Shown here: positions 9,323 to 18,005 of the stretch, piece by piece
How the letters are laid out: every line of letters begins with the position of its first letter
How positions within the stretch are numbered: position 1 is the first letter of the stretch
Assembly: GCA_023511295.1 (NCBI GenBank)
Contig: JAIMBT010000010.1
Coordinates: 1-64,000 of the forward strand
Reading direction: 5' to 3'
Source of the DNA: Alicyclobacillus sp.
GTDB lineage: Bacteria > Bacillota > Bacilli > Alicyclobacillales > Alicyclobacillaceae
Length of the DNA stretch: 64,000 nucleotides
Translations under genes and position numbers: made by a program
The notes under the pieces: generated by a model
Databases searched by the model: none
What the model was told of the DNA's origin: nothing
Seen by the model: the letters and a program-made list of their open reading frames with translations, nothing else

Positions 9323-10261
9323 TCAGTGCACCTGTAGTTCCCCGCGCAGGGAGCGAACAGCGTGCCCCCCAACATACACCGCTACATCCCCCGTCCCTTC
9401 ACGACCCGTCGGTGTCACCGCCAGCCGCGCATGAATCTGACTGGGGCGCCCTATCTCATATCCCTGCTCGAATACGACGCGGTCTCCCACGTCGACCCGG
9501 CCTGCGCGGTGCAGCAACGCCAGGAGTGCACCGCTCGCGGTCCCGGTGGCAGGGTCCTCCGGAATGCCGAGCGCCGGCGAAAAATCGCGCGCGTGGTAGT
9601 GGTGCCCCGGTTCCACCACTTCGGCGCTGTAGACGTGGGTACTCGCAACGCCAAGCTCCCGGTTCCAATCCGCCAGGCGCTCCATCGCGGGCCGGAGCGC
9701 CGCCATCCCGGCGAGCGTGCGAACCGGTACGAACAGGTCCCACAAGCCCGTGTACGCCAGACCGAGGGGCAGTGTCGCATCGAGCGCTGACGGCTCGATG
9801 CCGAGCGCCGCACACAGCCTCTCTGTGTCCACCTCCACCTCTCGGAACAGCGGCGGAGCTTGTCCCATTTCCGCCCATGCAAATCCCGATTGGACGCCGT
9901 ACATGACGGGGAGCACGCCGACCCGGGTGGCAATCCGCAAGACCCGCCCGCTCTCCCCAGGCGGCGCGGTCAATCGGCCATCCTGCAACAAACCGCACAC
10001 GGCGCCGATGGTGGCGTGGCCGCACAGGTCCACCTCGCAGGTGGGTGTGAAGTAGCGCAGTTGTACATCCGCCCCGGCTTCTGTCGGGTGTCCATCGACG
10101 TTTGGCACAGGCAGGACAAACGCCGTTTCCGACGCCCCAAGCTCCGCCGCAATCGCTTGCATTTGCCGGTCGGAAAGCCCGGACGCATCCGGCACGACGC
10201 CGGCGGGATTGCCGCCGAACACCTCTGTCGTAAACGCATCCACGAGCCACACTGTCGTCAT
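9323..10261 (-). CDS. PhzF-family isomerase/epimerase-like protein
   Basis: 312-residue protein with the diaminopimelate-epimerase-like fold of the PhzF family. N-terminal VDAFTTEVFGGNPAGVV, the catalytic-glutamate segment GASETAFVLP (about residue 45), CGHATIG and the C-terminal DPATGTASGAL are all present. Substrates of most family members are unknown, so no reaction is assigned. The ATG at 10261 is preceded by GGGAGGT. It lies 55 bases after a YheC/YheD gene on the same strand with no terminator between them, so it is probably the last gene of the cotE-downstream cluster. Confidence 0.85.
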   Translation of the reverse strand: MTTVWLVDAFTTEVFGGNPAGVVPDASGLSDRQMQAIAAELGASETAFVLPVPNVDGHPTEAGADVQLRYFTPTCEVDLCGHATIGAVCGLLQDGRLTAPPGESGRVLRIATRVGVLPVMYGVQSGFAWAEMGQAPPLFREVEVDTERLCAALGIEPSALDATLPLGLAYTGLWDLFVPVRTLAGMAALRPAMERLADWNRELGVASTHVYSAEVVEPGHHYHARDFSPALGIPEDPATGTASGALLALLHRAGRVDVGDRVVFEQGYEIGRPSQIHARLAVTPTGREGTGDVAVYVGGHAVRSLRGELQVH

Positions 10262-10316
10262 CTTACGACCTCCCATCGCTGCGACCCCCTGGTAGGCGCC
10301 AGGTCCTGCTGTCAGG

Positions 10317-11585
10317 TTAGCGAAACCCACGTTGGTCGCGCAACTCCTGCATGTGGTGCAGCAACCCTTCGAGCGACCGGCGGCGGATGTCCGGCTCATC
10401 GAACTTCATCGGCTTCGCATTGACTTCAAACAGCCAAGGGCGGCCCTTCGCGTCGACGCCGATGTCCATCGACATCTCGCCCAACCGTCCGGCGTAGTGG
10501 TCGTCAATGGCCCGCGCCAAGCGAAGGATCATCTCATCCATTCGCTGGTCAATCCGCTCCCAATCTGACCCGAAGGCACCCTCGAGCACCTCCTGGCGCG
10601 CCGCGATCGATCCGCCGTTTGGCACATGCGTCGCCACCGCGTTCGCACCTGCGACCCGGACCCCCTTCCCGACGACGGTCCAGTCGCCGTCGGATTTCTG
10701 GGCGAGCGCGCGAAAGTCGCACGGGTGACCTCGCCACTCGATTCGGTCCACCGTTGCCTGCAACACGTAGCGACCTGGGAGCTTGTGACGATGCACCACC
10801 GCCCAGGCCTCCTGCGGCGAGCGGGCGTGGTGTGGCGTACACGCGGCCGCTTTAAGCACCCGGACCAGCCACTCGTCGCCGTCCGCGTCCACGCGAATGA
10901 TGCCGTGGCCCACGCTCCCGCCGGACGGCTTCAGGTACAGACTCCGGTGCCTGCGCAACATGCGGAGAAATCCGGACTTGGTCAGGCGCCCGTGCGTCTC
11001 CGGAAGGTACCGCGACAACCCGGCACGTTGGACAATCTCGTAGATCTCCCATTTATTGAAGTAATCCGGGTTGAACAGCGGAATCTCGAGCCTCGCCAGG
11101 GTGGCCTTCGCAGCCACCGCAGACCGGGTCCGTTCCAGCGCACGGTTCGGAATCCGGTTGTACACCACTTCCGGGCGGGGGCACGGAATCGGAATCCAGC
11201 GGTTCCGCGCGACCCGTACAAATCCCGTCCAGACGTCTGCATCCGTCACCGCGTCGGGGGGCAGCACGTAGACGAACGCACGCTGTTCTCGGGCCACGCG
11301 GAGGATGTCCCGAAAGTTCGCACGACTGCCTGTGAAGTGGCGATTGCCGGCGAGGATGGCAAACACGGGCAGAGCGCCGGGTTCCTGTGGGATGGGGACG
11401 CGGTACAGGACGCGCCCCTTCGGCAACCGTGCGACCCACGGCACGGTCAGGTTGGAGACCCGGACCCTGGGTCGCCCTCCATCCGCCCCGCGCAGTTCGC
11501 GGTCTGCATACAGGAACATCCGGATGTCGCCGCCTGTCTGAACCCACACGAGTTCCCCCACACGTTCACGCGCCACAGCTGTCAC
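10317..11585 (-). CDS. YheC/YheD-family ATP-grasp protein (copy 1)
   Basis: 422 residues. The N-terminal ~200 residues are the family-specific domain, including a FNKWEIYEIV segment. The ATP-grasp core follows, with the glycine-rich loop YLKPSGGSVGHGIIRV at 217-232 and the metal-binding strand LFEVNAKP at 385-392 after MDIGVDAKGR. YheC and YheD of Bacillus are known as spore-coat-associated proteins, but their ligation substrates are unknown. The GTG at 11585 has GGGAGGGG a few bases upstream, and longer upstream reading is not conserved. It is the fourth gene after cotE. Confidence 0.85.
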   Translation of the reverse strand: MTAVARERVGELVWVQTGGDIRMFLYADRELRGADGGRPRVRVSNLTVPWVARLPKGRVLYRVPIPQEPGALPVFAILAGNRHFTGSRANFRDILRVAREQRAFVYVLPPDAVTDADVWTGFVRVARNRWIPIPCPRPEVVYNRIPNRALERTRSAVAAKATLARLEIPLFNPDYFNKWEIYEIVQRAGLSRYLPETHGRLTKSGFLRMLRRHRSLYLKPSGGSVGHGIIRVDADGDEWLVRVLKAAACTPHHARSPQEAWAVVHRHKLPGRYVLQATVDRIEWRGHPCDFRALAQKSDGDWTVVGKGVRVAGANAVATHVPNGGSIAARQEVLEGAFGSDWERIDQRMDEMILRLARAIDDHYAGRLGEMSMDIGVDAKGRPWLFEVNAKPMKFDEPDIRRRSLEGLLHHMQELRDQRGFR

Positions 11586-11658
11586 GCTCCCCTCCCGCGG
11601 GATACAGCACCGCACTTCGCCCGTCGTCCCTCGCCGTCCCGCATGGGCATTCGCGCCC

Positions 11659-13110
11659 CTACGCGCGCAGCATCGTCGGCGCCCGACGCCGGCCGCGCTT
11701 CGTCGGTTTCTTCTTGGAAAGTGGAATCCCCCAAGCCACGCGCACATCGATATCCTCGTTCCAAACGGTTCGCGACTGAATCATCGCGATGAGCGGCTCA
11801 ATCTGTTCACGAACGCGCTGGTACGCGCTGAACCGACTGAGCAGCGTCAGGTTGTGCTCGGCCAACGGCGCGAGGACCTCCGCCTGGCCCTGAAAAAACG
11901 CCCGCTGAAGGGACGCTTCGTACAAATCTGTTGGGATGGGAAGTTCCCGGTGATGGTGCCCAATCACATACGCCAACGCGAGTGCAGCCGCCGTGACTTC
12001 GGGACTGACGACAAAGCTTGCGGGCGTGCGGTACTCAAACCCCCCGTGGTCCTTGTGCCGGACGTCTCCATAAAACCCGTACCGCTTGCGCCGCAGAACG
12101 GCGGTACGGGGGTCTTCCACCACCATCAAAGGCAGACCCAAGTAGTTATCCAAGACCCGGACCAGGCGGCTGGAGAATGGGATCCCGGAGAAGTGGATGT
12201 GCCCGCCGATGGAGAACGGACGAAACGGCATGCTGCCGGCCCGCCATTCGACCCCTTCCCGGTTGATGGTCTCACTCGCTTCGACCATCAGGGCGCGCAG
12301 ATTGGAGACCACCGTCATCGGCTGGGCAGCGGGCGCCGGCCGAAGTTCGAGAAGCGGCAGCCGCTTGCCGTCAAACTGGATGCTCCGGTCGTCACAGCCG
12401 ATGGCCCCTTTGCGCGTGAAGTACCGGCTGGCCAGCACCATCTTACCGGCACTGTTGCGCAGCATCAGCTCTACATCCGTACCGAGAAGAAAGGGGGACG
12501 GCGATTCCGCGTCCCGGTCGATGGACGCTTCCACCGCGTTTGCGTACAGGTCCAAGAGCCGTCCGGACAACACGGGTGCCGGCGTGACGTCGACCACATA
12601 CAACACGCCCTGCGGCGCCATCGACACGCTGACCAGACCGTGATCCAACCCCAGGGCGTGAAGTGCGCGCAACGCGTAGTACATCGCGCGCGTGGTCACT
12701 TTGTCGTCGTCGAGCGGAACCTCGCGGAAGTGCTCCGGCACCCGCTGAATCCGCTGGTTCAGCCAGGCAGCTCCCTGGTCGGCCCGAAAACACGTCAACG
12801 CTTGCAGATCAAAGATTGGGAACCGGTAGTGGCGCAGGAAGGTCGGCTGGTTGGACCCCTTCGACACCACCCGGACGCCCACGCGGCGCAGAAACTGCGC
12901 CATCTCGCTGCGGGAACGCGTGCGGGCGACCGCGGCGGACGGATTGAGGACCTGTGTATTCACCGGGTCCGGCGTATCTGTCGCGCCCCACCGGATGACG
13001 ACGTCGTCCGACCGGAGTTCGGACGCTGTCGTGAAGGGACGGAGGTTTGCCACCCGTTTGAGCAGGCGCTTTGCCGACGGCTGCCCGCGGTAGAGCAAGT
13101 AGTACGTCAC
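11659..13110 (-). CDS. GS-like COOH-NH2 ligase (amidoligase) fused to an ATP-grasp-like N-terminal half
   Basis: 483 residues. The C-terminal half carries the glutamine-synthetase-like amidoligase signature of the phiEco32-type family: LLGTDVELML (208-217), an IGCDD then LELRP pair (237-258), GGHIHFSG (302-309) and FEYRTPASF (358-366). The N-terminal half ends in ALHALGLDHGLVSVSM then VVDVTPAP (150-179). This resembles the C-terminal ATP-grasp strand, with E-N of EVNTAP changed to D-T, so it may be degenerate. The substrates are unknown. The start is GTG with AAAGGAGATG upstream. It sits between ATP-grasp genes, which suggests that they act in one pathway. Confidence 0.75.
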   Translation of the reverse strand: MTYYLLYRGQPSAKRLLKRVANLRPFTTASELRSDDVVIRWGATDTPDPVNTQVLNPSAAVARTRSRSEMAQFLRRVGVRVVSKGSNQPTFLRHYRFPIFDLQALTCFRADQGAAWLNQRIQRVPEHFREVPLDDDKVTTRAMYYALRALHALGLDHGLVSVSMAPQGVLYVVDVTPAPVLSGRLLDLYANAVEASIDRDAESPSPFLLGTDVELMLRNSAGKMVLASRYFTRKGAIGCDDRSIQFDGKRLPLLELRPAPAAQPMTVVSNLRALMVEASETINREGVEWRAGSMPFRPFSIGGHIHFSGIPFSSRLVRVLDNYLGLPLMVVEDPRTAVLRRKRYGFYGDVRHKDHGGFEYRTPASFVVSPEVTAAALALAYVIGHHHRELPIPTDLYEASLQRAFFQGQAEVLAPLAEHNLTLLSRFSAYQRVREQIEPLIAMIQSRTVWNEDIDVRVAWGIPLSKKKPTKRGRRRAPTMLRA

Positions 13111-13230
13111 AAGGCGACATCTCCTTTCGGTGGCCTGGCGGCGGCTCGCGGTGCAGCGAGCACGGGCGATGGCGCACCGGGGCCGTCCAAACCATCCCCC
13201 ACGCCGTATCCCGTGTCGTCCGCGCCCAGC

Positions 13231-14601
13231 TCACCGCCGGGAAGCCAGATGGATGGCGTACTGGATGGGGCGGGTGAACGCCAAGTCGACCAGGTCCTGC
13301 CGGCCCTTCTCTGTGTAGGGACGTTTCCACGGCTTTGAATTCACCTCAATCACCCACACGTGCCCGTCCTCATCGAGGCCGATGTCGATACCGAGCTCCC
13401 CGAGCAGCCGGCCGGATTGCTCCTCCAGTACGGCCGCGACCAGGTGGGAGACACGCAGAATCTCCCGGCGACAGCGGACGCGCGCCGCCTTCTGCGCATA
13501 GATGGCGCGGTTCACCACCTGGACGGGCAGGGCTTCTCCGCCACTCGTCAGGTTCGACGTGAAATCGCCGGGCTGCGCGACACGGGCGAACACCTTTGTC
13601 CGCCTCCAGTCCCCGCTGCCATCTCGCTGCAAGACAATCCGGATGTCAAACGGACGCTCCCGGTACTTCGCCAGCGTCAGACCCTGTTGGACCAGGTAGG
13701 GTTTGCGGCCGATGCGCCCGCGCAAGAACTGCAGCAACGCGCTGTGCGTTGGCGACGTGCCGTGTTCCCGCGCGCCCCGCCGCTTGACGTCGTAACTGTA
13801 AGATCCGTCCGACTGGCGGATGACGCGGATGATACCGAAACCCAGACTGCCGTGGACCGGTTTGAGGAAGACGGGGTTGTGAACGCGGATGAACTCCGAC
13901 GTCGCTTTCCCGGGCGTGAACCGGATGGTCTTCGGCACATGCGGGCGCGTTCGCTGATCACTCGTCAACCACTCGTGAACCTGCCACTTGTCGAAGAAGC
14001 CGTCGTTGAAGATGCGTCCGCGGTACAATTCACCCAGCCGTTTTCGCTTTCGCTGGTACGCTCGTTCCACTTTTCGCGAGATCACCTGGTCGTAGATGAC
14101 GTCCGGGAACGGAAGCACCACCTTACGCCATCGCTTCCCATTCCACACATAGGCCTGGACGCGCTGGCGCTCAAAGTCCATATCGCGAATGCCGAACACG
14201 CAGACCATCGCGCCCTCGCGCCGGCCGATTTCGCACATCTTCTGCAGACTCGGCAGCTGCTTGGTCGCCTGCAGGGTGCCTTGGGCCTCTTTCCACACCG
14301 GGCTGCAGAGGATGCCAATCAGCGGGCCGATGGTCACCTCGTCTCCAGCGACGGACGCCCGCAGGACCTCTAGCTCCGCTTGGCCGAGTAGATCTCGATG
14401 GACTGCGGGCGAGATCGTCATCACACCGGACGGGAGGGACGGGTCAGCCAGGACCTGAACGACGGAAACGTTGGAACCAAACGAGCAGACGAGACCCAGG
14501 GGGCCGCCTTCCGCTCGCTGCGGAATCCACGCCGGATGCAGGCCAATGACGGCCCCTGGCTGATGAACCAAGTGGATGCGCATGCGTTCGCCGGTATCCA
14601 T
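13231..14601 (-). CDS. YheC/YheD-family ATP-grasp protein (copy 2)
   Basis: 456 residues with the same architecture as copies 1 and 3. The ATP loop is FLKPVHGSLGFGIIRV and the metal-binding end is WVIEVNSKPWKR after GIDIGLDEDG. An N-terminal domain of about 200 residues precedes the core, with FNDGFFDKWQVHEWL at the domain boundary. The ATG at 14601 has AGGGG eight bases upstream and is 13 bases after the stop of copy 3, so the two are co-transcribed. This copy has the best-kept ATP-grasp motifs of the three. Confidence 0.85.
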   Translation of the reverse strand: MDTGERMRIHLVHQPGAVIGLHPAWIPQRAEGGPLGLVCSFGSNVSVVQVLADPSLPSGVMTISPAVHRDLLGQAELEVLRASVAGDEVTIGPLIGILCSPVWKEAQGTLQATKQLPSLQKMCEIGRREGAMVCVFGIRDMDFERQRVQAYVWNGKRWRKVVLPFPDVIYDQVISRKVERAYQRKRKRLGELYRGRIFNDGFFDKWQVHEWLTSDQRTRPHVPKTIRFTPGKATSEFIRVHNPVFLKPVHGSLGFGIIRVIRQSDGSYSYDVKRRGAREHGTSPTHSALLQFLRGRIGRKPYLVQQGLTLAKYRERPFDIRIVLQRDGSGDWRRTKVFARVAQPGDFTSNLTSGGEALPVQVVNRAIYAQKAARVRCRREILRVSHLVAAVLEEQSGRLLGELGIDIGLDEDGHVWVIEVNSKPWKRPYTEKGRQDLVDLAFTRPIQYAIHLASRR

Positions 14602-14614
14602 ATCGACGGCCCCT

Positions 14615-16072
14615 TTACCCGAACTTGGCGTCCTCGAACCCCGCCGCCCTGATAGCATATTCAACGAGATTGGCCAATGACAGCTCGCGCAGTTCGGGGG
14701 ACACAGATCGCAGCATCCGCCTACCGGGTGTCGGATTGACCTCGAAGACGTACGGATGACCCGCTTGGTCCACCCCGATATCGACACCCACTTCCGCAAA
14801 CGGCCCGTAGACCTGCAACAGGTGGCGAACCACACGGATGGCGAGATTGTCGATGGTGTCGGCCAAACGCTGTGGGTCCGCCACCGCAAGTCGATTCAAC
14901 GCTTGGCAGGCATCGACCGGGACTGCACCCGTGTGAAGGTTGGTCGTCACGGCGTCGCGGGACCCCACACGGCCGACGCGTCCGATGACTTGCGGTTCAC
15001 CCGTCACCTGCACCAGCCAGCGAAAGTCAACCGGGCGTCCGTCTACAGTGCGCAGCAGCGGAATGGCCCGCTGGACCACCCATCGGCGGAACCGCTTGCG
15101 GATTCGGCGCAGAAGCGCATCCGTATCCGCGACACCTGACAACTCCCCGCGAATGACGTGCACGGCTCGTTGCGGGCGCGTCAGAGCCGGTGGGCCCATT
15201 CCTTTCGCGACGGCCTTTCGTCTGTTCCTGGGAGCGCCGTTTCCAGTAGCGGCTTCAGAACGGACCTCGACGACGTCCGAACTGCGGCGGATCAGGCGGT
15301 GAATCAGATGACCCCTCGCCCCATTGAACGGTTTCAGGTACACGTCGCCCCATTCCTGAACGGCGCGCCAAAGGTCGGCGCCCCTCATCACCTCGCGCGT
15401 TTCCGGCAAATGCTCGCGCAATTGCGCATCCTGCCGTGCGGTCTGGTAGAAACTCCACTTGTTACTACTCTCTCTCGGAAGGCTGTGCATCCGTCCGTGG
15501 GCTTCGAACCAACGCAGGTCCGCTGCCACCGCGGACTCGGGGGCGCGAAACCGACCGGACCTGCGCAACACCACGTCCGGCAGCGGCAGCCATTCCTCCA
15601 CCCACGTTGTCGGGCGACCGGGGGCGAGCCGCCATCCCTTGTGGCGCTGCGCAAAACCTGGCGTCAGCACCACCACATCGATTCCTCGCTCCGCTCCCAG
15701 CCGACAGAGGTCCGCCAAGAGCTGGTTCTGTTCACCGAAGCGGCGACCCGGTTCTCGTTCATCCGACACGTAGACGCCGAGGCACGGCCCGATTCGCCAA
15801 CGCTCCGCTTGGTGAACGACGTGGAGGTAACCGGATGACGGCAAGCCCAACGCCTGCCGCAACGCAGGGCTGATGAACAACGTACGGACGTCGCTGTCCC
15901 GCGCAGCCGCCGGTTCGGCTCCCGCTCCTGCCATTCCGTCGGCGAAGGCGCGCACGCTGAGCGAACGATCGGCGAACTGAATCATCGACGGGACGTTCCC
16001 GTCCGCTGGCGACGGCGACACGTGCACTTCCCGTCCGTGCAAGGATGCGTCGACGAGAATCTGGACCAACAC
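14615..16072 (-). CDS. YheC/YheD-family ATP-grasp protein (copy 3, divergent)
   Basis: 485 residues and the first gene after cotE. The family N-terminal domain includes NKWSFYQTARQD. The ATP loop reads YLKPFNGARGHLIHRL, so two glycines of the usual GGSxGxGI pattern are lost, while the C-terminal metal strand YVFEVNPTPGRRM is intact. An Arg/Lys-rich insert (RNRRKAVAKG) follows the loop. The GTG start has GGAGGGAGG just upstream. A strong hairpin lies between it and cotE. The altered loop suggests changed nucleotide binding. Confidence 0.8.
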   Translation of the reverse strand: MLVQILVDASLHGREVHVSPSPADGNVPSMIQFADRSLSVRAFADGMAGAGAEPAAARDSDVRTLFISPALRQALGLPSSGYLHVVHQAERWRIGPCLGVYVSDEREPGRRFGEQNQLLADLCRLGAERGIDVVVLTPGFAQRHKGWRLAPGRPTTWVEEWLPLPDVVLRRSGRFRAPESAVAADLRWFEAHGRMHSLPRESSNKWSFYQTARQDAQLREHLPETREVMRGADLWRAVQEWGDVYLKPFNGARGHLIHRLIRRSSDVVEVRSEAATGNGAPRNRRKAVAKGMGPPALTRPQRAVHVIRGELSGVADTDALLRRIRKRFRRWVVQRAIPLLRTVDGRPVDFRWLVQVTGEPQVIGRVGRVGSRDAVTTNLHTGAVPVDACQALNRLAVADPQRLADTIDNLAIRVVRHLLQVYGPFAEVGVDIGVDQAGHPYVFEVNPTPGRRMLRSVSPELRELSLANLVEYAIRAAGFEDAKFG

Positions 16073-16086
16073 CCCGCCTCCCTCCT

Positions 16087-16118
16087 AAACAAAGGGTGCG
16101 GGGTGTGCACCCCGCACC
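16087..16118 (-). terminator. Hairpin between cotE and the ATP-grasp cluster, terminator or attenuator
   Basis: An 11-bp perfect GC-rich stem (GGTGCGGGGTG, complement on 16108-16118) with a 2-base loop is followed on the minus strand by CTTTGTTTAGG. The U-tract is interrupted and runs straight into the ribosome binding site of the next gene. It can end cotE transcripts, throttle read-through, or stabilise processed ends. Confidence 0.6.
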
Positions 16119-16148
16119 GTACGTCGAAACCGGTACCCCGCGAGACCG

Positions 16149-16685
16149 TCAGTCTTCGACGTCGACCTCTTCCAGCAGGTCCTCCTCGTCCGTGAATTCG
16201 TCCTCTTTCTTGTCAGCGAGGTCACACGTGACCACACACAGCTTGGTTTGACCGATGACCTCAACGGCCAACTCCTTCTCCACGCGTACCAGCATCTCCG
16301 ACCCATTGCCGGTCACGGTGGCGTCCAGGCAGTTCGGCGCCTGAAGCACCCGGACGGCGACCGTTCGGCTGTCCCGGTCTGCATCGGGATCGAGCTCGCG
16401 AAGGGGGATCTGCTCCACATAGGAGACCGTGTCCTTCGCAACGGCGGTCTCGGAGTTCCCATTGTACGAATACCAGACGTTTACATCGAACCGCCCGCGC
16501 ACCTCTGCGTAATCTCCGACCAACTCCGCTTCGCAGGTGTGGTTCATCACCCAGCAGCCGCCAATCGTCGTTGGGCGGTTGGCCGGCCGAAGCGTGTACG
16601 TGGTCTGAGAGTACTTGCTGCCGCGGCCGCATACCGCGTTGGCGACAATCTCACGGTAACTCAGGTCCTTGCTCGAGAGCACCAT
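16149..16685 (-). CDS. cotE: Outer spore coat morphogenetic protein CotE
   Basis: Directs outer-coat assembly on the forespore surface in the mother cell. The 178-residue protein matches CotE in LSYREIVANAVCGRG, GGCWVMNHTCEAELVG, the FDVNVWYSYN core and VLQAPNCLDATV. The C-terminus is very acidic (runs of D/E from about residue 160), as in the family. The ATG at 16685 follows GGAGG at seven bases, and reading upstream of it has no similarity. In Bacillus cotE sits between ymcA and mutS; here it is displaced by about 9 kb from ricA. Confidence 0.93.
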   Translation of the reverse strand: MVLSSKDLSYREIVANAVCGRGSKYSQTTYTLRPANRPTTIGGCWVMNHTCEAELVGDYAEVRGRFDVNVWYSYNGNSETAVAKDTVSYVEQIPLRELDPDADRDSRTVAVRVLQAPNCLDATVTGNGSEMLVRVEKELAVEVIGQTKLCVVTCDLADKKEDEFTDEEDLLEEVDVED

Positions 16686-17048
16686 GCGGCAACCTCCTTC
16701 ATGTCCTGCGGTTTCAGCATGGGGCGCCTGCCTGCCGATCCCGCGTTTGGTATTGCAACAGTATGCGGGACGAATGCCAGGGGTGCAGGTATCGCATCGC
16801 TCCAGAGCTGGCAACGTCCAGACGCTACACGGCATCGTATGCGGCCGTACACTAGGCTGCTATCCCGTGCGGGCGAGAACCCGAAAATCGGGCTCATCCG
16901 CCGCCCCACACAAAAAAGCGGGTGGACATTCCGGCCACGCGGCTCCTGCGGCGAAGCCGCTCGAACGCCGATGCCCGGTGTCCACCCGCTGTTTCAGGCG
17001 TTTCCGTCCAGAACAAACATTCCTTCGTCCATCCGCTGCGGTTCCGTG
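16686..17048. other. Intergenic region upstream of cotE
   Basis: No open frame with a ribosome binding site was found. The right part holds the terminator of the dipeptidase gene. The left ~225 bases should contain the cotE promoter. A CATACGAT element (complement of 16834-16841) resembles the -10 of mother-cell sigma factors E/K, but no -35 partner at correct spacing is evident, so it is a weak candidate only. Confidence 0.5.
16912..16990 (-). terminator. Intrinsic terminator after the dipeptidase gene
   Basis: A 12-bp perfect stem (arms at 16917-16928 and 16979-16990) encloses a 50-base loop that itself contains a GCGGC/GCCGC hairpin. On the minus strand it is followed by six U. It isolates the cotE region from spoVS-dipeptidase transcription. 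Confidence 0.8.
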
Positions 17049-18005
17049 TTACGCGGGAAGGACGTCGCTCAGGAAACGTTCGAAGTTTGCAAACAAGATC
17101 TTCTCCGCCAAGCCTTCCCCGTAGCGCGCCGCGAGCTGATCTGCAAACGCCGCATAGTCGGAGGCGTCCGTCAATCCAGGAACGGCATGGCTCGTCCCGT
17201 CGAAGTCCGAACCGAGGCCGAGAATGTCTTCGCCGCCGAGCTCCAAAACGTGATCCATATGCTTGAAGACGGCGTCCACGGACAGCGCTGACTCCTGAGC
17301 GACAAAGCTGCCTTCAAACACCATCCCCATCCATCCGCGCCGAGCAATCAACTCACGAATCACGTCGTCGGTCAGGTTCCGCGGATGCTCATGCACCGAG
17401 CGGCAGTTGGCGTGCGACGCCAACACGGGCCCATCCGTCCGTGCGAACACGTCCGCTACCCCTTGGTCCGCCAGATGGGCGAGGTCAATCCACATCCCCA
17501 GTCGGCCCATCTCTTCCACCACGGCCAGGCCGGCGCCCGTGAGCCCGCCGCCGCGCGGCTCTCGACACCCGTCGGCCAGTTCGTTCGCGTAGTTCCACGT
17601 CAGCCCCATGCCGCGGACGCCGAGGTCGTGCATCACGCGCAAGAGCGCCGGTTGGCCGCGCAGACACCCGCCACCTTCAATCGACAAAACCGCCGCCAAC
17701 TCGCCCCGTTCCCGCGCTTGTGCCAGTTCAGCCCGACTGCGAACGGCCCGCACGCGTCCGTCTGCGACGACCTGACGGTAAAACAGGTCCAAGGACCGCA
17801 GCACGTCTTCCAACTGGCTGGTGGGGGGCTTCGTTGGGTCTACATACAGCGCGAACACCTGTGTCGCCACACCAGAGCCGCGAAGTTTGTCATAGCTCGC
17901 CTGCAATCTGGAATCACCGTAGAAACACTCGTCGCGCTCCAACATTCTCCATAACACGTCCACATGCGCATCGGCAATACGCCGCATCCCACCATCACCA
18001 TCCAC
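17049..18005 (-). CDS. Membrane-dipeptidase family (M19) zinc dipeptidase
   Basis: 318-residue metallopeptidase of the renal dipeptidase family, which cleaves dipeptides, some with a C-terminal D-residue. Metal ligands appear in DAHVDVLW near residue 12, the SIEGGG glutamate, DLAHLA, ASHANCRSVH and the GLGSDFDG aspartate. No signal peptide is seen, so it is probably cytoplasmic. The start is uncertain: GTG at 18005 or ATG six codons later, neither with a well-placed ribosome binding site (GGGAGGTG lies too far upstream). It follows spoVS by 50 bases and may share its sigma-H promoter. Confidence 0.88.
   Translation of the reverse strand: MDGDGGMRRIADAHVDVLWRMLERDECFYGDSRLQASYDKLRGSGVATQVFALYVDPTKPPTSQLEDVLRSLDLFYRQVVADGRVRAVRSRAELAQARERGELAAVLSIEGGGCLRGQPALLRVMHDLGVRGMGLTWNYANELADGCREPRGGGLTGAGLAVVEEMGRLGMWIDLAHLADQGVADVFARTDGPVLASHANCRSVHEHPRNLTDDVIRELIARRGWMGMVFEGSFVAQESALSVDAVFKHMDHVLELGGEDILGLGSDFDGTSHAVPGLTDASDYAAFADQLAARYGEGLAEKILFANFERFLSDVLPA

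Follow-up and report, generated by a model that had tools for sequence, protein, structure and literature searches.

We analyzed a gene cluster that follows cotE, the gene for an outer-coat morphogen, in a 64,000-nucleotide stretch of Alicyclobacillus sp. DNA (contig JAIMBT010000010.1 of assembly GCA_023511295.1, positions 1 to 64,000), referred to as the window herein. The family, phylum, and element analyses given below make it very probable that cotE and the four ligase genes behind it form a sporulation-specific, coat-linked ligase unit. All six cluster genes lie on the minus strand and were confirmed with Pfam profiles:

16149..16685, minus strand: cotE, outer-coat morphogen, 178 amino acids; CotE (PF10628), E 4.5e-57, 192.9 bits against a cut-off of 25
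14615..16072, minus strand: YheCD-1, ATP-grasp ligase of the position 1 clade; PF14398, E 5.4e-45, 206.4 bits against 26.8
13231..14601, minus strand: YheCD-2, ATP-grasp ligase of the position 2 clade; PF14398, E 5.5e-75, 252.3 bits against 26.8
11659..13110, minus strand: PF14395 COOH-NH2 ligase (type 2); PF14395, E 1.6e-95, 319.6 bits against 25
10317..11615, minus strand: YheCD-3, ATP-grasp ligase of the position 3 clade; PF14398, E 5.7e-61, 154.1 bits against 26.8
9323..10261, minus strand: PhzF-family isomerase, accessory; PhzF, E 4.5e-68

Both Pfam and the coordinates confirm the original prediction that cotE is followed, on one strand and with short gaps, by three YheC/YheD (YheCD) proteins, one PF14395 ligase, and a PhzF protein, with the PhzF stop (9323) and the cotE start (16685) as its outer limits. 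With the likeliest start codons, the intergenic gaps are 76 nucleotides (nt) for cotE/YheCD-1, ∼13 nt for YheCD-1/YheCD-2, 120 nt for YheCD-2/ligase, ∼43 or 73 nt for ligase/YheCD-3, where two GTG starts are possible (11615 or 11585), and 55 nt for YheCD-3/PhzF. Read from right to left, the minus-strand order in the window is rny, ymdB, spoVS, an M19 dipeptidase gene, cotE, YheCD-1, YheCD-2, the PF14395 ligase, YheCD-3, PhzF, miaB, ricA (YmcA type), and mutS. The encoded CotE has an acidic tail with the terminal residues EEVDVED.

Upon comparison of 41 genomes of the Alicyclobacillus family, we found exactly one CotE match and one PF14395 match in every genome (41/41). The order cotE-yheCD-yheCD-ligase-yheCD was kept in 40 of the 41 loci, the contig of the remaining one ending inside the cluster, and two Alicyclobacillus loci (L031, L032) have the same gene order as the window, which is our ground for naming the family. 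Conservation to this extent makes a chance origin of the order implausible. Among the 40 order-keeping loci, four carry an insert inside cotE and one has a split yheCD-3, both described below; an apparent frame shift in a ligase or YheCD gene was found in two family loci (L065, L097). The CotE tails are likewise alike, ending in EEVEIED in 26 of 40 and in related sequences in the other 14 (four of the 40 are rejoined tails). The PhzF gene, which had been included in the cluster, is present in 8 of the 41 loci and was ruled out as a core member. Going upstream from cotE, the first labelled gene in 39 of the 41 loci is that of the M19 dipeptidase, which in the window occupies positions 17049-17987 between spoVS and cotE.

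For the wider picture we used an even draw of 398 genomes from the phylum. PF14395 was detected in 51 of them, with one match (G255) weak and partial, and CotE in 49, of which 45 were above the cut-off. Both occurred in 28 genomes (Fisher P 2.6e-16, not corrected for descent), and in 25 of these 28, covering 10 of 12 families, the two genes lie within 10 kilobases (kb) of each other. The two exceptions are family f120, with the genes 22-26 kb apart, and family f129, with the genes on different contigs and a weak CotE match. SpoIVA was present in all 51 PF14395 genomes, as against 340 of the 398 in the whole sample (P 1.8e-4 with no correction for descent; genomes matched by eye). A Bacillus subtilis control genome was without the PF14395 ligase.

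Gene order was read from 40 loci of 37 of the 50 other PF14395 genomes, two further genomes being added later; of these 40 loci, 22 have cotE and 34 have YheCD in the same stretch. The arrangement reads cotE-cotE-yheCDx4-ligase in f21 and f59, cotE-yheCD-ligase-yheCDx3 in f27 and f61, and ligase-cotE-yheCDx2 in L133, and in L122 cotE is flanked by two PF14395 ligases. Five f2 genomes (Paenibacillaceae-like, by our guess) have cotE-ligase-mutS with no YheCD found within the 20 kb fetched, their YheCD array being located elsewhere in the genome, which indicates that the tie between ligase and CotE stands by itself. In f25 the ligase lies beside YheCD and no CotE was found. Two distant proteins (L117, L033) have PF14395 fused to YheCD in a single chain, which argues that the two act jointly. 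Six loci (L108, L113, L120, L125, L128, L131) have two tandem cotE-like genes ahead of the YheCD array, the first without the long acidic tail. In those loci of f27, f61, and f120 that were scanned (L110, L139, L115, L187), the gene directly 3' of the YheCD array encodes a GNAT acetyltransferase, and a further acyl-transfer step is possible there.

The following regulatory features were found around cotE in the window:

16756..16785, minus strand: putative cotE-proximal mother-cell-type promoter box, CACC-N15-GCATACTGTTG; AC-N-GCATAC pattern in 28/36 family upstream regions
16833..16860, minus strand: putative cotE-distal box, GCATACGATG, with GCAG upstream; GCATA(C/G/A)GATG in 29/36 family regions
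16913..16994, minus strand: inverted repeat (16 nt) followed by a T run in the M19 dipeptidase/cotE gap, possible terminator; 50-nt loop, long
16095..16118, minus strand: hairpin between cotE and YheCD-1 with a weak T tail, possible partial terminator; 10 such sites in the region against 10.4 expected

To count the two boxes, which in the proximal case may also be written CACC-N15-GCATACTG, we took 40 family regions upstream of cotE and dropped four with doubtful cotE starts. In the remaining 36, GCATAC occurs 60-110 nt upstream of cotE in 28, GCATA(C/G/A)GATG occurs at 115-215 nt in 29, and both are present in 21; shuffling of the letters gives an expectation of 0.5 and 0, respectively. Upstream of seven other genes in the same loci, GCATAC was found in 0 to 2 of 25-37 regions each. 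The boxes resemble the consensus of sigma-E/sigma-K promoters, and we regard them as putative. Only the CATA boxes and an AC-type -35 hold; the sigma-E consensus with an ATA-type -35 scored no better than background and was discarded. A sigma-70 promoter scan returned 1 site against 2.2 expected. A terminator between the M19 dipeptidase gene and cotE is weakly supported: with loops of <40 nt, a setting that misses the long-loop repeat of the window, terminators were found after M19 in 5 of 39 loci and after the ligase in 0 of 41. Hairpins of varying quality lie 3' of cotE in family loci (counted with no control), and it is a guess that the one before YheCD-1 could lower enzyme output relative to CotE.

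Additional evidence on when the unit is used came from relatives in which cluster genes are split by large inserts. In four family genomes (G004, G007, G008, and G014; loci L066, L069, L070, and L076), cotE is interrupted at one site by an early stop, followed by 2.9-5.0 kb that start with a large serine recombinase gene, after which the acidic-tail exon stands intact before YheCD-1. No second CotE match was found in these four genomes. The edges of these inserts share only an imperfect 15-nt repeat, so the exons were rejoined at matching codons, and the recombinases form two pairs that are ∼57% alike. The cargo comprises a signal peptidase S26 in L066 and a histidine kinase with a STAS domain plus a YfmQ-like protein in L069 and L070. 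Similarly, in both PF14395-bearing f120 genomes (G324, L185+L186; G344, L187) an insert of 5.2-5.3 kb containing a serine recombinase gene interrupts the ligase gene just before its HxH motif; the edge repeats are exact and measure 10 and 14 base pairs (bp), and no second ligase copy was found in either genome. The G344 insert also carries an NlpC/P60 protein. Lastly, a 13.6-kb insert interrupts yheCD-3 of family genome G040 (L191, ∼1.9-15.4 kb) close to the invariant lysine. It has a serine recombinase gene and an exact 11-bp edge repeat; aboard are a gerA/permease/gerC germination operon, a PAS-GGDEF-EAL-PilZ protein, and a methyltransferase. Joining at the best repeat gives an open frame in every split gene, which a second, 9-bp repeat in G040 does not.

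In the two split genes tested, cotE and the ligase gene, the exons downstream of the inserts are under constraint. For the cotE 3' exon, the rates of nonsynonymous (pN) and synonymous (pS) difference were 0.03 and 0.86 (32 codons, L066/L069), and the closer two pairs had no amino acid change; for the ligase 3' exon they were 0.16 and 0.74, compared with 0.165 and 0.78 for the adjoining intact yheCD. When two of the recombinases were used as queries against 9456 open reading frames from 84 loci, a set chosen around the cluster with the f120 loci left out, we obtained five hits including the queries, all at split cluster genes. The assemblies of G004, G008, G040, and G324 consist of one or two contigs, making assembly error an unlikely source of the inserts. 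A split yheCD gene in G055 (L189, 5.8-7.2 kb), intact in its relative L190, was rejected as a fourth element, being interrupted by a 1.4-kb insertion sequence with a DDE transposase.

The relatives, and not the window itself, thus have the marks of a skin-type element: a split gene, a large serine recombinase, edge repeats, and an in-frame empty site. From their sequences we infer that the elements are excised in the mother cell, and the split genes could work only after removal of the insert. Known targets of sporulation intervening elements, as listed in PMC10747680, are sigK, spsM, spoVFB, gerE, and yabG (such elements are also covered in PMC5595907), and PMC13141910 describes a phage inside sigK of Alicyclobacillus. 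Our elements are like skin, gin, vfbin, yin, and SP-beta in having a large serine recombinase beside the 5' exon, edge repeats, and an in-frame empty site, and differ from them in their targets, cotE, the PF14395 ligase, and yheCD-3. Among the literature matches listed, none dealt with an element in cotE, PF14395, or yheCD. That three genes of the cluster tolerate inserts that would block their function unless taken out supports expression in the mother cell only, as does the restriction of the set to SpoIVA genomes of the sample and its position behind mother-cell-like boxes. The inserts are genetic evidence, independent of expression data, that the unit belongs to the mother cell, and the split genes are new candidates for the small set of sporulation genes that excision of DNA restores.

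To describe the enzymes, we built a tree of 125 C-terminal parts of YheCD proteins by a quick method that left 41 of 122 inner branches open. The copies at positions 1, 2, and 3 of 21 family loci formed three separate groups, of 21, 21, and 19 rows, respectively; at position 3, two loci had pieces of under 300 amino acids, which were left out. Rows of other lineages fell between these groups, from which the three YheCD enzymes appear to have diverged earlier than the family itself. The ATP-grasp lysines and metal ligands K205, K247, D406, E419, and N421 are intact in 82 of 82 aligned YheCD sequences, including the three of the window. A structure model of YheCD-2 (predicted local distance difference test, pLDDT, 95.6) matched RimK, the S6 alpha-L-glutamate ligase, with Z 22.6 and a root-mean-square deviation of 2.8 over 277 aligned residues, with further matches to ArgX (Z 22.4), LysX (22.1), and TTLL11/TTLL6 (19-20). 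RimK is the closest solved fold and shares the catalytic set, whereas YheCD-2 has ∼90 extra N-terminal residues and scores below the cut-off of the RimK family TIGR00768 (18.8 bits against 143.4), to which YheCD-1 and YheCD-3 gave no match.

The PF14395 ligase was modeled in two parts (pLDDT 93.7). Residues 205-462 adopt a GCS-like fold, matching a predicted glutathione synthase of Salmonella (Z 18.3), YbdK (17.6), and plant glutamate-cysteine ligase (17.0), and, as a fold match only, Dop (15.8) and PafA (15.4). While YbdK and PafA/Dop share this fold at Z ∼15-18, the ligase belongs to a separate Pfam family with a RimK-like domain in front. Residues D212, E214, E255, R257, H304, H306, R340, R351, E359, and R361 are intact in 58 of 58 aligned PF14395 rows; we take these conserved GCS-type residues to be the catalytic ones. 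Residues 1-202 are RimK-like in the model (Z 16.1, 184 aligned). At the positions aligned to the D, E, and N metal ligands of YheCD, the ligases mostly have S/D/H, D/G/S, and T/D/S, and because the ligands are mostly replaced, we call this a probable degenerate pseudo-ATP-grasp domain. Sequence comparison gives weak support for the RimK-like domain, with one match (4.9e-7, residues 32-82) to an S6-transferase family of phages and an hhalign probability of only 15% for the ligase against the YheCD metal loop. A search of solved structures with the ligase profile placed RimK (E 0.54) below two unrelated chains (E 0.048, 0.43), making that search uninformative alone.

These folds bear on what the enzymes make. 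YbdK and glutamate-cysteine ligases being the best folds of the C-terminal ligase domain, and YheCD-1 matching MptN weakly (E 5e-5, 22.5 bits where the cut-off is 350), the product might be a small soluble metabolite, glutathione- or cofactor-like, that is required in sporulation. The tight linkage to a structural coat gene across 10 families speaks against this, and we consider it improbable.

Instead, we favor a reading in which amino acids are ligated step by step to an acceptor in the coat. Here, cotE and the four ligases would be expressed in the mother cell as one sporulation-specific unit comprising three active RimK-like ATP-grasp enzymes (YheCD-1, -2, and -3) and a GCS-fold ligase with a dead RimK-like domain. 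The enzymes would work one after another, and every step would couple an ATP-activated carboxylate to an amine; the fusions and the retained YheCD paralogues suggest that several ligations occur on one product. By comparison with RimK, for which ribosomal protein S6 is the chain to be extended, and with TTLL enzymes, which act on the tails of tubulin, the most likely acceptor would be the acidic tail at the C terminus of CotE or of some coat protein that CotE holds. This tail would be extended or capped with amino acids. We favor the CotE tail because the ligase stays by cotE where YheCD lies elsewhere, because relatives of these enzymes modify tails, and because, according to PMC11980541, the acidic tail of Bacillus cereus CotE controls calcium-dependent meshwork formation. 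A change in tail charge may then alter this calcium-controlled meshwork. We hold this reading as a whole (sporulation-specific unit, sequential ligation, CotE tail as acceptor) tentatively, its chance falling somewhat short of even. The stronger form, in which a dedicated multi-ligase machine modifies the morphogen's tail, in parallel to polyglutamylation of tubulin tails, and so tunes the charge of the coat lattice and its response to calcium, and in which split-gene relatives need programmed excision in the mother cell, is rather unlikely.

Several results weigh against the CotE tail as acceptor or against a unit confined to sporulation. A two-hybrid assay reported in PMC7911427 showed no binding of YheD to CotE or to other morphogens. 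Acidic CotE tails also occur in genomes without the ligase (five readable tails of eight loci examined, the other three having been dropped for a wrong reading frame), ruling out the acidic tail as a mark of ligase-bearing genomes, as ligase-less Bacilli have it too. No CotE match was found in 23 of the 51 PF14395 genomes of the phylum sample, so CotE is not the sole partner everywhere, and two CotE genomes (G218, G431) have neither a YheCD nor a PF14395 match. The YheCD-2 model also lies near the small-molecule enzymes glutathione synthetase (Z 21.8) and D-cycloserine synthetase (Z 20.1), so near to RimK in score that the acceptor cannot be told from the fold. In phages, too, PF14395-like and ATP-grasp proteins are found, and hence the family is not limited to sporulation. 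Three YheCD paralogues of ancient origin are as much in keeping with peptide assembly as with tail extension, and no regular sigma-E/K-like box precedes the YheCD genes (GCATAC in 4, 1, and 6 of 41) or the ligase gene (1 of 37).

The shortage of boxes, together with housekeeping-type neighbors such as miaB, ricA, mutS, and rny, would also be expected if the ligases served vegetative growth and their adjacency to cotE were historical. We judge this highly improbable given that both PF14395-bearing f120 genomes have their ligase gene in split form, no second copy being found, and yheCD-3 is split in G040, that PF14395 is present only in SpoIVA genomes of the sample, and that the cotE adjacency is kept among different neighbors in other lineages. 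Not much less likely than the CotE-tail reading is that the four ligases string free amino acids together into a non-ribosomal peptide or polymer for deposition in the coat; CotE would then be scaffold, neighbor, and anchor, and not acceptor. Three anciently distinct, adjacent YheCD clades suggest successive steps, glutathione synthetase is a close fold of YheCD-2, the GNAT enzyme lies behind the cluster in three families, the M19 dipeptidase ahead of cotE could belong to peptide metabolism, and the PF14395 genomes without a CotE match fit as well. Set against this are the lack of an evident transporter or carrier gene among the labelled genes of the family cluster and the ligase remaining beside cotE where YheCD is located elsewhere. 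With any of these acceptors, what stands of the predicted coat or sporulation pathway is a linked amide-bond-forming set, without PhzF in its core, tied to cotE and sporulation by family synteny, adjacency in 10 of 12 families, presence only with SpoIVA, promoter-like boxes before cotE, and inserts in three genes of relatives.

The comparison with known systems is as follows. LysX/ArgX with the carrier LysW match the YheCD-2 fold (Z ∼22) and provide a working analogy in which an acidic protein C terminus is the acceptor. No LysW-type carrier was found at the cluster, where the CotE neighbor matches only CotE in Pfam and no other small gene is labelled (no genome-wide LysW search was made), and none of the labelled cluster neighbors belongs to a lysine or arginine pathway. 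B. subtilis YheC/YheD belong to the same family, PF14398; PMC517825 places their genes in the sigma-E regulon, raised by SpoIIID, and PMC7911427 describes YheD as forming a shell around the spore. In contrast, the cluster described here has three anciently separate YheCD genes directly behind cotE, with a PF14395 ligase that is absent from the B. subtilis control genome. Finding YheCD proteins in a conserved unit with cotE and one further ligase makes the role of YheD testable.

The association of YheC/D, PF14395, and CotE is itself probably not new: Iyer et al. (Mol BioSyst) reportedly predicted the link in 2009, and the Pfam family texts are said to do likewise. Among the literature matches listed, none joined spore CotE with ATP-grasp enzymes, as judged by title or start of abstract. 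New in the present work are the counts across family and phylum, the recognition of a pseudo-ATP-grasp domain, the division of the YheCD enzymes into three groups, the PF14395-YheCD fusions, and the inserts in cotE, the ligase, and yheCD-3. As for other genes near the cluster, a five-gene stretch between the YheCD genes of f25 was ruled out as a pathway for L109, where it consists of ordinary genes (an HtrA-like protease, phosphofructokinase, hydroxyacyl-CoA dehydrogenase, a PH-domain protein, and YchF). A gene of the Mur-ligase family, with open reading frames of like size present in L125, L128, and L131, lies on the opposite strand just past the cluster in two f21 genomes (L108, 11047-12480; L120, 7263-8663).

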